From NCBI GenBank assembly GCA_020850355.1, contig JADZEX010000041.1, forward strand, positions 124,001-188,000: 64,000 nucleotides of DNA, in the 5' to 3' direction. The position numbers and the translations under genes are program-made. Position 1 is the stretch's first letter. Every line of letters begins with the position of its first letter. Below are positions 45,086 through 57,849 of the stretch, piece after piece. The notes beneath the pieces were generated by a model. It was given only the letters and a program-made list of their open reading frames with translations, was not told where the DNA came from and made no database searches. Source of the DNA: Fimbriimonadaceae bacterium (lineage in GTDB: Bacteria; Armatimonadota; UBA10988).

Positions 45086-45106
45086 AAAGGGGTCAGGACC
45101 CTTTTT
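45086..45106. repeat. REP-like motif, RAYT 3' side
   Basis: AAAGGGGTCAGGACCC plus a five-T run. The core GGGTCAGGACCC is an imperfect palindrome (5-base arms around AG). The RAYT stop codon TGA lies inside it on the minus strand, and the orientation is opposite to the copy upstream of RAYT. Confidence 0.85.
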
Positions 45107-45779
45107 CGGCTGTGCGGCGGGGCCGGCCCCGGTCGCGGAGGGCGCTGGTGAGGCCCAGGCGTTGGGCGGTGCTGGCGACCCAGGTGGGGTCGCCGAACGG
45201 TCCGCCGCGCTGGGCGCAACGGCGCAGGGCGTCGAGTTCGCGGTCGCTGAGGGGCTCGTTGATCCAGTCCGGCGAGTCCGTCGGCGGGCTGACCGGCCAG
45301 GATGTCAGCCAGGCGCGGTCGGCGTCGTGGTCGGAGAGCCGCCGCCAGAGGCTGGACCATTGCCAGTCCTGCGCCTGCGGCACCAGACCGGCGCGCAGCG
45401 GGTTGCGTTCGACATAGCGGCAGACGGTCAGCAGGTACTCGTCGTCCTGCACCGGAAAGCTCTTGAAACGGCTCTGGTAGAGCGGCCCCTGCCCGATCGT
45501 GCCGTGGGCGGTGTGCCAGCGCTGGACGTGGGTCTTGCTGAGCCAGCCAACGAACTGCGACAGCGCGCCGTCGGTCTCCGGCCAGACCACCAGGTGCCAG
45601 TGGTTCGGCATCACGCAGTAACTCAAGAGCCGCAGCGGCTGGCGCTCCAGGGCGCGCTGCAGGACGGTCTCGAAGGCCGTGTAGTCGAACTCGGTCTGGA
45701 ACAGGGGCAGGTGCGCCACCGCGCGATTGAGCACGTGGTAGACCAGCCCGCCCTCGGCGTTGCGGAGTCGTCGTGGCAT
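45093..45779 (-). CDS. REP-associated tyrosine transposase (RAYT, Y1/HUH)
   Basis: The 228-residue single-strand HUH endonuclease is predicted to nick and mobilise REP/REPIN sequences. It has the start RLRNAEGGLVYHVLNRA and the HUH motif His60-Trp61-His62 in CVMPNHWHLVVWP. GPLYQSRFKSFPV follows, with the tyrosine candidate Tyr122 in CRYVERNPLRAGLV. Its stop codon is formed by the 3' REP motif. The promoter ends 5 bases before the ATG and starts next to the upstream REP copy. The gene looks intact, so it may still act on the solo REP copy at 57829. Confidence 0.93.
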   Translation of the reverse strand: MPRRLRNAEGGLVYHVLNRAVAHLPLFQTEFDYTAFETVLQRALERQPLRLLSYCVMPNHWHLVVWPETDGALSQFVGWLSKTHVQRWHTAHGTIGQGPLYQSRFKSFPVQDDEYLLTVCRYVERNPLRAGLVPQAQDWQWSSLWRRLSDHDADRAWLTSWPVSPPTDSPDWINEPLSDRELDALRRCAQRGGPFGDPTWVASTAQRLGLTSALRDRGRPRRTAEKGS

Positions 45780-45784
45780 ACTCG

Positions 45785-45814
45785 ATTGTAGCCGCGAGCG
45801 GTTGGCCGTGTCAA
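45785..45814 (-). promoter_or_regulatory. RAYT promoter, apparently leaderless
   Basis: On the minus strand: -35 TTGACA (perfect), an 18-base spacer and -10 TACAAT, ending 5 bases before the ATG. Transcription would begin at or next to the start codon. The -35 lies one base from the REP motif. Confidence 0.78.
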
Positions 45815-45815
45815 C

Positions 45816-45836
45816 AAAGGGTCCTGACCCGTTTGC
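45816..45836. repeat. REP-like motif, RAYT 5' side
   Basis: AAAGGGTCCTGACCCGTTTGC, whose core GGGTCCTGACCC is the exact reverse complement of the core at the RAYT 3' side. The two form an inverted pair bracketing the gene. Confidence 0.83.
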
Positions 45837-56072: not shown

Positions 56073-57830
56073 TTGGACCGCACGCCAGACGCCGCCGGGA
56101 CCGCGCCGCCACCGGCCACGACGAGTTCGTCGGGCGGGCTGCGGGCCTTTCTGCCCCACCTCCGTGAACAGCGCGGGCGAATCCTCACGGCGGTCGTGCT
56201 GGCCCTCGGCGTCAGCGCCTTCAACCTGGCGGTGCCGTGGTTGTTCAAGCGGCTGACCGAGGATGTGCTGGTTGGCCAGCGACCAACCGAGCAGCGGCTG
56301 CACCTGCTCGGCTGGATCCTGCTGTGGGTGATGCTTTGCTTCGTCGGCCGCCGGATCTGCCAGTCGCTGAGCAGCTACCTGGCCCTCTCGGTGACCCAGC
56401 GCCTGGCCGTGGCGGTCCGACGTGATGTCTACAACCACCTGCATCGCCTGCGGCTGGAGTTCTTCGACGACCAGCGCACCGGCGTGCTGGTCAGCAACGT
56501 CACCAACGACGTCACGGCCCTGCAATACCTGCTGCACGACGGCCTGGTGCAGGTCTTCACCAGCCCGGTCACGGTGCTCGGTTCGATCGTCTTGATCTTC
56601 CGGATGGACGCCATCCTGGGCCTGCTGACGCTACTGGTCTTCCCGCTGCTCTACCTGCTGGTCTCACGCACCCGCGACCGCGTGCGGCAGATCAACGAGG
56701 AAAACCAGACAGCGCTCTCGCATCTCACCACGCTCTTCCTGGAAGCGGTCTGGAACATCCGCATCGTGCGCGCCTTCCAGCGGCAGGAGCACGAGATCGC
56801 CAAGTTCGAGGCCAGCAACCGCGACAGCCTGCGCCTGCGCCTGCGCAACGCCGCGCTGAATGTCTGGATCGAGTTCATCACCGAGAGCACCATCCTGGTC
56901 GGCTTCGCCGCCGTGCTCTGGATCATCGGCTACCGCATCGCCACCGGGCAGATTGAGCTGAGCGCCCTGATTGCGATGGTGGCTTACCTCCAGATGATGC
57001 GCTCGTCGCTGATCAACCTGTCGACCGCCTACGCCCGCTACCAGATGGCCAGCGGCGCGGCAACCCGGCTGCTGGCGTTGCTGCACGAGCCGGCGCTGCC
57101 GCCGCCGCCGCGGCTGACCACCAGCCTGCCGCCAACCTGGCGCGGCGAGCTGGACATCCGCGGCCTGCACTTCGCCTATCCCGACGGCACGGTGATCTTC
57201 GCCGGCGCCGATCTGCAGATCGCCGCCGGTCAGAAGGTCGCCCTGATCGGCGCCAGCGGGACCGGTAAGTCGACCCTCGCCACGTTGTTGTTGGGGCTCT
57301 ACCGCCCCCAGGCCGGCACCCTGCGGCTGGACGGCGTGGACCTCGCCGAACTGCCGCCCGAGGTGCTGCTGCACGTCGTCAGCATCGTGCCACAGGATGT
57401 CGGGCTGTTCAGCGGCACGGTCCGCGAGAACATCGCCTACGCCAAGCTGGAGGCGAGCGACCAGGAAGTGATCGCCGCCGCCGAGGCCGCCAACGCCCAC
57501 GGCTTCATCGGCAGCCTCGCCGCGGGCTACGAGACCTTCGTCGGTGACCAGGGCGTGAAGCTGTCAGGCGGCCAGAAACAGCGCCTCGCCATCGCCCGCG
57601 CGATGCTCCGCAACCCGCGCCTGCTGATCCTCGACGAAGCCACCAGCCACATCGACCCCGAGACCGAAGCCCTGGTGCAAGAGGCCCTCGAACACCTGAT
57701 GACCGACCGCACGGTGATCGTGATCGCCCACCAGGCCTCCGCCCTGAAGGGCGTCGACCGCGTCCTGGAGCTGCGCGGCGGCCGCTTCGTCGACCTCGGC
57801 CCGCCCGGCCCCCACCTGCTCGGCCGATAA
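56073..57830 (+). CDS. ABC exporter, fused permease-ATPase (MsbA-like)
   Basis: The 585-residue half-transporter has six membrane segments in residues about 35-320 and an ATPase domain (about 355-580). The latter has Walker A GASGTGKST (393-401), signature LSGGQ (497-501), Walker B LLILDEATSHID (517 on) and H-loop His in VIAHQ. It likely exports lipid or a hydrophobic molecule as a homodimer. The best start is TTG at 56073; no ATG is available before the first membrane helix and the Shine-Dalgarno is weak. Its stop codon overlaps the solo REP copy. It is divergent from ilvD. Confidence 0.93.
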   Translation: MDRTPDAAGTAPPPATTSSSGGLRAFLPHLREQRGRILTAVVLALGVSAFNLAVPWLFKRLTEDVLVGQRPTEQRLHLLGWILLWVMLCFVGRRICQSLSSYLALSVTQRLAVAVRRDVYNHLHRLRLEFFDDQRTGVLVSNVTNDVTALQYLLHDGLVQVFTSPVTVLGSIVLIFRMDAILGLLTLLVFPLLYLLVSRTRDRVRQINEENQTALSHLTTLFLEAVWNIRIVRAFQRQEHEIAKFEASNRDSLRLRLRNAALNVWIEFITESTILVGFAAVLWIIGYRIATGQIELSALIAMVAYLQMMRSSLINLSTAYARYQMASGAATRLLALLHEPALPPPPRLTTSLPPTWRGELDIRGLHFAYPDGTVIFAGADLQIAAGQKVALIGASGTGKSTLATLLLGLYRPQAGTLRLDGVDLAELPPEVLLHVVSIVPQDVGLFSGTVRENIAYAKLEASDQEVIAAAEAANAHGFIGSLAAGYETFVGDQGVKLSGGQKQRLAIARAMLRNPRLLILDEATSHIDPETEALVQEALEHLMTDRTVIVIAHQASALKGVDRVLELRGGRFVDLGPPGPHLLGR

Positions 57831-57849
57831 AGGGGTCAGGACCCTTTTT
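57829..57849. repeat. Solo REP-like motif away from RAYT
   Basis: AAAGGGGTCAGGACCC plus a five-T run, identical over 21 bases to the motif at 45086. It begins inside the stop codon of the ABC exporter gene and ends in the gap before hemW. Its stem plus T-run could also serve as terminator for the exporter gene. Confidence 0.85.

Follow-up and report, generated by a model that had tools for sequence, protein, structure and literature searches.

The window analysed here is a stretch of 64,000 nucleotides from a Fimbriimonadaceae bacterium, and it carries a Y1 transposase gene packed between two inverted repeats. The features of this element, which measures 749 bp as the gene plus its ends, are listed below together with a third copy of the repeat in the same window.

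45086..45106, plus strand: 3' terminal inverted repeat, AAAGGGGTCAGGACCCTTTTT on the plus strand, containing the transposase TGA; a copy of the 20-mer family described below
45093..45095, minus strand: transposase stop codon TGA, within the 3' repeat
45096..45779, minus strand: Y1 transposase coding sequence (TIRYT/RAYT-like), 228 codons and 228 amino acids, assigned from PF01797, NF047646 and AlphaFold/Foldseek
45785..45790, minus strand: -10 box TACAAT, with an 18-nt spacer and 5 nt to the ATG (45779)
45809..45814, minus strand: -35 box TTGACA, one base off the 19-nt arm of the 5' repeat
45815..45834, minus strand: 5' terminal inverted repeat, AAACGGGTCAGGACCCTTTG on the minus strand
57829..57849, plus strand: third repeat copy, AAAGGGGTCAGGACCCTTTTT, with the exact core at 57833-57844

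As claimed in an initial annotation of this DNA, the transposase gene is bracketed by inverted cores: exact copies of GGGTCAGGACCC occur at 45090-45101 on the plus strand and 45819-45830 on the minus strand, and the inverted arms reach a score of 16, the highest value among 30 shuffles being 10. The gene closes with ...AAA GGG TCC TGA, with the TGA (45095-45093) falling within the core, and at the other end a single base separates the 19-nt minus-strand arm AAACGGGTCAGGACCCTTT (45834-45816) from TTGACA (45814-45809). The earlier observation is thus confirmed, both for the stop codon within the 3' copy and for the -35 box at a distance of one base from the 5' copy. Its interpretation was partly supported. 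The stop within the repeat renders the gene self-contained, and the proposal that this would preserve the reading frame on transposition goes further than that. The promoter boxes and the distance of 5 nt to the ATG suggest that the transposase mRNA may be leaderless. In the stretch 57828-57849, which holds the third copy, the first bases of the repeat are overlapped by the TAA (57828-57830) of the upstream gene, the sequence of which carries an ABC-ATPase signature.

Within the window the core is only weakly enriched (19 sites at up to two mismatches vs 11.55 expected, a count reached in 3 of 100 shuffles), and the case for its enrichment therefore rests on the whole genome. In the 6.67 Mb genome to which the window belongs (G000), with the reversed pattern as control, 23 exact core sites were found vs 3, the 20-mer AAAGGGGTCAGGACCNTTTT gave 83 sites vs 1 at up to three mismatches, and the 15-mer AAAGGGGTCAGGACC gave 88 sites vs 1 at up to one mismatch. 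These controls rule out chance as the source of the repeat family, and they go against the one outcome that the initial annotation had named as fatal to its reading, a core no commoner than chance. The tabulation of orientation, spacing and gene association which it had proposed describes a dispersed family whose members are often paired. A stricter scan of 45 stretches yielded 70 copies of two main types, with position 16 being A in 47 and C in 22. Among 27 cases of neighbouring copies within 150 bp, 14 were convergent, 5 divergent and 8 tandem, and 7 of the 14 convergent pairs showed the conserved spacing of REPINs in the form of an 8-bp loop of related sequence, so that convergent pairs look like a unit of approximately 50 bp. 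With respect to genes, 34 of 43 repeat clusters lie between called genes and 2 within genes, which places 34 of the 36 classifiable clusters (the other 7 being at contig ends or lacking a flanking gene) in intergenic DNA, as against a called coding fraction of 87.8% at the same loci. Seven gene stops overlap a repeat, namely that of the transposase and six others.

The repeat begins with AAAGGGGTCAGG, its 5' part being AAAGGGGTCAG. As DNA, a single copy forms a weak fold, unlike classic REPs, which speaks against the explanation favoured here: it reaches -3.9 kcal/mol, which 24 of 200 shuffles match, and the more frequent A type at position 16 reaches only -0.8 kcal/mol. Several copies in G000 (contigs C9, C13, C28, C48, C66, C104 and C109) lie within approximately 200 bp of contig starts, which indicates that the assembly breaks there and that the copy number may be undercounted. 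Besides the transposase, a host gene (L187, 3019-4281) uses the TGA within a repeat as its stop, and does so in the transposase's frame. Around a repeat variant, tggtggca..AGGGTCAGGACCAT..gtaccaatagtccagaccc.., lies a longer conserved unit with eight copies (L191, L202, L215, L217 and L218; contigs C39, C75, C95 and C109), which may be a further miniature element descended from an old pair.

The protein encoded at the locus contains a Y1_Tnp domain (PF01797, E=3.8e-13 in Pfam), with a HuH motif in which H60 and H62 are invariant and a catalytic tyrosine, Y122, present in at least 90% of 38 alignment rows. It also possesses an RYVERNP motif and helices beyond residue 143, which may set it beside subclass 2.1 by the published description. 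The initial annotation had named it a RAYT with REP motifs, which is right at the level of the superfamily. The AlphaFold model (mean pLDDT 92.7) has E. coli TnpAREP (PDB 4er8) as its top PDB match, with a Foldseek E-value of 7.4e-9, and the same protein is the first solved structure matched by a profile of eight relatives, which makes it the best solved relative by both sequence and fold. The NCBIfam REP-transposase model recovers the whole of the set A1, eight members, at E<=0.01, and the convergent repeat pairs resemble REPINs. Taken strictly, as a canonical RAYT with GTAG-tagged REPs, that wording is nonetheless improbable: the repeat is without a GT[AG]G foot, the window protein scores 69.1 bits against REP_Tyr_transpos (NF047646), under the cut-off of 80, and its catalytic neighbourhood reads YQ, when compared to the WQ or WE listed for canonical RAYTs in Table 1 of PMC6006769. 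On these three grounds the label of GTAG-REP RAYT was rejected. GTAG-tagged hairpins do occur in this genome, where they adjoin a different Y1 gene instead. This second gene, the only other Y1 gene of the genome, is found on contig C85 (L024, G000:C85:1-2271) beside hairpins such as GGTAGCCCAGGGCATCGCCCTGGGC, and together they constitute a canonical REPtron sharing the genome with the element described here.

As the GTAG foot is lacking and the NCBIfam cut-off is missed, the better label is TIRYT/TIRtron, after the branch of RAYT-like elements described by Di Nocera, De Gregorio and Rocco (2013, PMC3733652). The inverted repeats at the ends of the gene bear no relation to GTAG REPs, and the TIRtron motif GGGGWSAS is fitted by GGGGTCAG of the 3' copy, with CGGGTCAG of the 5' copy one base off at a position which is G in 55 of 70 genome copies.

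The repeat is private to its genome. The G000 15-mer, at up to one mismatch, has no sites in each of three genomes of the same family and at most two in each of 57 others, and the transposase protein was matched in 24 of the 61 genomes near the window's own. In G001, where the transposase is 58% identical, 69 sites of a repeat of its own were found, with none in G000, G002 or G003. G002, with a transposase 49% identical, holds 37 sites of its own repeat, which has no sites in G001 or G003 and 10 matches in G000, every one of them at three mismatches. In an NC10 relative (L086) the repeat is barely amplified, with three sites, two of them beside its transposase. Such private repeats indicate that amplification is a matter of the lineage and goes with the local transposase, and we infer from this co-occurrence in the sequences that the transposase moves the repeat. 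Two contigs of G002 (L219 and L220) carry the same transposase 3' end and the same downstream flank, the gene being 82% identical and the 24-bp repeats identical, and they are probably two strains in one bin.

Movement of gene and ends as a whole, as in an ordinary insertion sequence resembling IS200/IS605, would account for the Y1 fold, which is common to the IS608 and ISDra2 transposases, and for the packing of the gene, which lies between inverted ends and has its promoter and stop next to them. Many insertion sequences are packed in this way. This explanation is given very little credence here, since several near-identical whole elements would be expected of it and the gene is the sole match to its own protein in the genome (E<=0.001), one copy vs 88 copies of the repeat, the multicopy part being the short repeats. 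The shared downstream flank of the two G002 contigs also looks like one locus in two strains.

The packing of gene and repeats was followed among the best 80 of 484 relatives of the transposase, mostly from Planctomycetota and also from NC10, Nitrospira, Geobacter, Pseudomonas and others, of which 71 were analysed and nine were dropped as truncated or lying at contig ends. A flanking inverted repeat beating 40 shuffles was detected in 50 of these 71 best relatives. The stop lies inside the 3' arm in 22 of the 50 and overlaps it in 6, while the arm starts no more than 5 bp past the stop in 6, 6-30 bp past it in 11, more than 30 bp past it in 4 and before it in 1. With a stricter score, a strong flanking inverted repeat was found at 46 of 71 transposase genes vs 2 of 82 other ORFs at the same loci. 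Among these 46 relatives the stop is wholly inside the 3' arm in 22, vs 5.4 expected from uniform placement, and inside or overlapping it in 28, vs 6.3 expected, figures for which a binomial reading has to allow for sister relatives being non-independent. All three stop codons (TGA, TAA and TAG) are represented, at a variety of offsets. On a quick tree of 52 proteins, in which 20 of 49 inner branches are weakly supported, the stop-in-repeat state requires no fewer than 15 changes. This trait is not fixed in the transposase family, and it arises repeatedly because most repeat sequence types hold a stop in a reachable frame. Exceptions such as L057 and L081, without a 3' repeat by the arm-score test, and L060/L082, with a 3' repeat 19 bp past the stop, indicate that the architecture is not obligatory. 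As for the promoter, TTGAC within 200 bp upstream of 69 genes falls at -40 to -31 from the ATG in 16 of 25 occurrences, and it lies near the end of the 5' arm in 13 of 50 repeat-flanked genes, the remaining 37 not having it there.

An additional property concerns the DNA beyond the repeats, as convergent pairs often lie within longer palindromes whose flank sequence is different at each locus. Symmetry was measured as the run of matching flank bases and compared with flanks paired across loci, using 10,000 permutations. For 30 pairs of G001 (one more, L229, was dropped because it runs into a contig end), runs extend from 3 to 30 bp with a mean of 9.8 vs 2.08 across loci, a value reached in none of the 10,000 permutations. 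The seven G000 pairs with an 8-bp loop behave similarly, with a mean run of 6.1 vs 1.5 (2 of 10,000). No symmetry was detected for the eight G000 pairs with other loops (1.75 vs 1.61; 4161 of 10,000), and none of significance for the seven pairs of G002 (2.29 vs 1.74). To see whether classic REPINs share the property, four 50-kb stretches of E. coli MG1655 were scanned and contained 39 REP heads, forming 6 outward and 10 inward pairs, and the 6 outward pairs were without flank symmetry (0.67 vs 0.93). A Pseudomonas GI 16-mer had a single copy in the L141 genome. The arms of G001 pairs are likewise more alike within pairs than between them, differing by 0.50 vs 2.27 bases (none of 10,000 permutations), with 19 of 30 pairs having identical arms; no significant link was observed between identical arms and longer symmetric flanks (P=0.19).

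As the flanks differ at each locus and belong to no element, they serve as a neutral witness of what befalls the pairs. It has been considered that REPIN-like hairpins drive local template switching, in which one flank is copied onto the other, hairpin symmetry is kept by replication and not by selection only, and the spill rewrites the last codons of neighbouring genes; we judge the chances of this proposal to be evenly balanced. At L250 the 28 symmetric bases correspond to the ends of two convergent genes belonging to different families, covering the final eight codons plus the stop (DVVVYRGR*) in each. Homologues of the left gene end in QLPDGGDVALYGRV (G002) and LLADGGSVDVWRREG (G003), and a homologue of the right gene ends in CEFAQVEVYAR (G002), with both L250 genes aligning with their homologues almost to the last codons; the left gene was uncalled on the plus strand by the gene caller and rests on homologues at 48-52% identity. 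The two tails were perhaps somewhat alike earlier, and the present identity of their DNA calls for copying across the pair. Template switching in a hairpin, which makes arms identical and extends them, is consistent with the sharply ended runs, with borders free of loop bases and with the coding sequence involved at L250.

The main rival to template switching is that the pairs were inserted at the centres of pre-existing palindromes such as terminator stems, which we regard as a less probable, though not negligible, origin of the symmetry. The pairs are mostly intergenic, with 12 of 31 G001 pairs lying between convergent genes, and an older repeat pair is seen in some flanks, which indicates that nested insertion occurs. 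Prior palindromes sit less easily with a symmetry that begins at the border with no leftover loop bases and runs for at least 3 bases in 30 of 30 G001 pairs. At L250, moreover, the 28 bp in question encode the C-terminal ends of two unrelated proteins and are no terminator. When G001 pairs with a second repeat core in their flanks were excluded, the effect survived in the remaining 18 pairs (9.33 vs 2.80; none of 10,000), and flank positions 5-8 all matched in 12 of these 18 vs 3 of 306 combinations across loci. An empty or pre-switch site for L250, L224 and L252 was sought in G003, G002 and G000, which gave homologues of individual flanking genes and no syntenic site lacking the pair, the nearest genomes belonging to other genera; of these comparisons, only that of the L250 gene tails was informative. 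Misassembly of palindromic repeats would also produce symmetric flanks, and the genomes are indeed many-contig drafts in which L229 reaches a contig end, but we find such an artefact highly improbable given that the runs span a mere 3 to 30 bp and are sharply ended, with different genes beyond each side, and that both genes at L250 match homologues almost to their last codons.

Taken together, these data support with good confidence an explanation in which a TIRtron has its repeats mobilised in trans, with enzyme and repeat changing together, followed by template switching on the pairs. The single-domain HUH/Y1 transposase gene packed between two inverted repeats of approximately 21 bp is the TIRtron itself, and its ending inside a repeat makes the element self-contained and compact. 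The transposase would recognise the folded repeat in single-stranded DNA and cut and join there, probably acting in trans on repeat pairs, the REPIN-like units of approximately 50 bp, so that the repeats rather than the gene would be multiplied. An own repeat together with an own transposase variant in each genome would be expected if enzyme and repeat change together. In a second, host-driven step, the hairpin may let the replication polymerase switch template, which would copy one flank onto the other, keep the arms alike and extend the palindrome into neighbouring DNA.

The element extends a little-studied TIRtron branch with a clear case in which promoter and stop stand at its repeats, and the same packing of gene and repeat recurs in distant relatives. 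A private amplified repeat in each genome of one family constitutes a ready system for studying enzyme-repeat specificity. Flank symmetry bears on an open question regarding REPINs, namely why the hairpin halves stay alike, and if template switching is true, compensatory changes in such hairpins would alone be no evidence of selection for structure. The element belongs to the known TIRtrons, and repeats overlapping such genes and REPs supplying stop codons are already in print. The part that did not turn up in the open-access literature searched, passages of PMC3116915 and PMC8049555 included, is the flank symmetry of REPINs.

Template switching at quasipalindromes is known to make inverted-repeat arms identical and to extend them by polymerase, as would be the case here, but the descriptions covered here deal with test loci in E. 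coli and yeast, with genes of yeast and with hairpins in RNA, and REPIN-like elements do not appear in them (PMC7202029, PMC3820800, PMC8604942, PMC8794818). With the REPIN/RAYT system, as presented in the relevant portions of Bertels and Rainey (2011, PMC3116915), the present family shares intergenic convergent pairs able to form one hairpin, covarying arms and one matching transposase; it differs in its non-GTAG repeat, its units of approximately 50 bp and the symmetric flanks of the G001 pairs and of one G000 subset. According to the sections concerned of Quentin et al. (2018, PMC6006769), TnpAY1 subclass 2.1 is the equivalent of Bertels group 1 and takes in 20 of 26 TIRYTs. A possible resemblance to this subclass lies in a length of approximately 238 aa, the Y-x-x-x-NP motif, an N at the HuH (NHxH) and an extra C-terminal part, whereas the HuH reads NHWH here, YQ stands in place of W[EQ]/FQ, and the repeats are amplified, in contrast to the lack of REP-like sequences near 2.1 genes in those sections. 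The closest counterpart is the TIRtron, for which the corresponding passages (PMC3733652) mention no -35 box next to the repeat, do not say where in the 3' repeat the stop falls and report no symmetry of the flanks, and from the motif of which the 5' copy here, CGGGTCAG, departs. The same passages describe a RAYT-like gene flanked by inverted non-GTAG repeats, the motif GGGGWSAS that is matched here by the 3' copy, repeats overlapping the 3' end of the gene (marked '3'ov') and moderately abundant repeat families with many dimers or clusters, all of which are shared by the element in the window.
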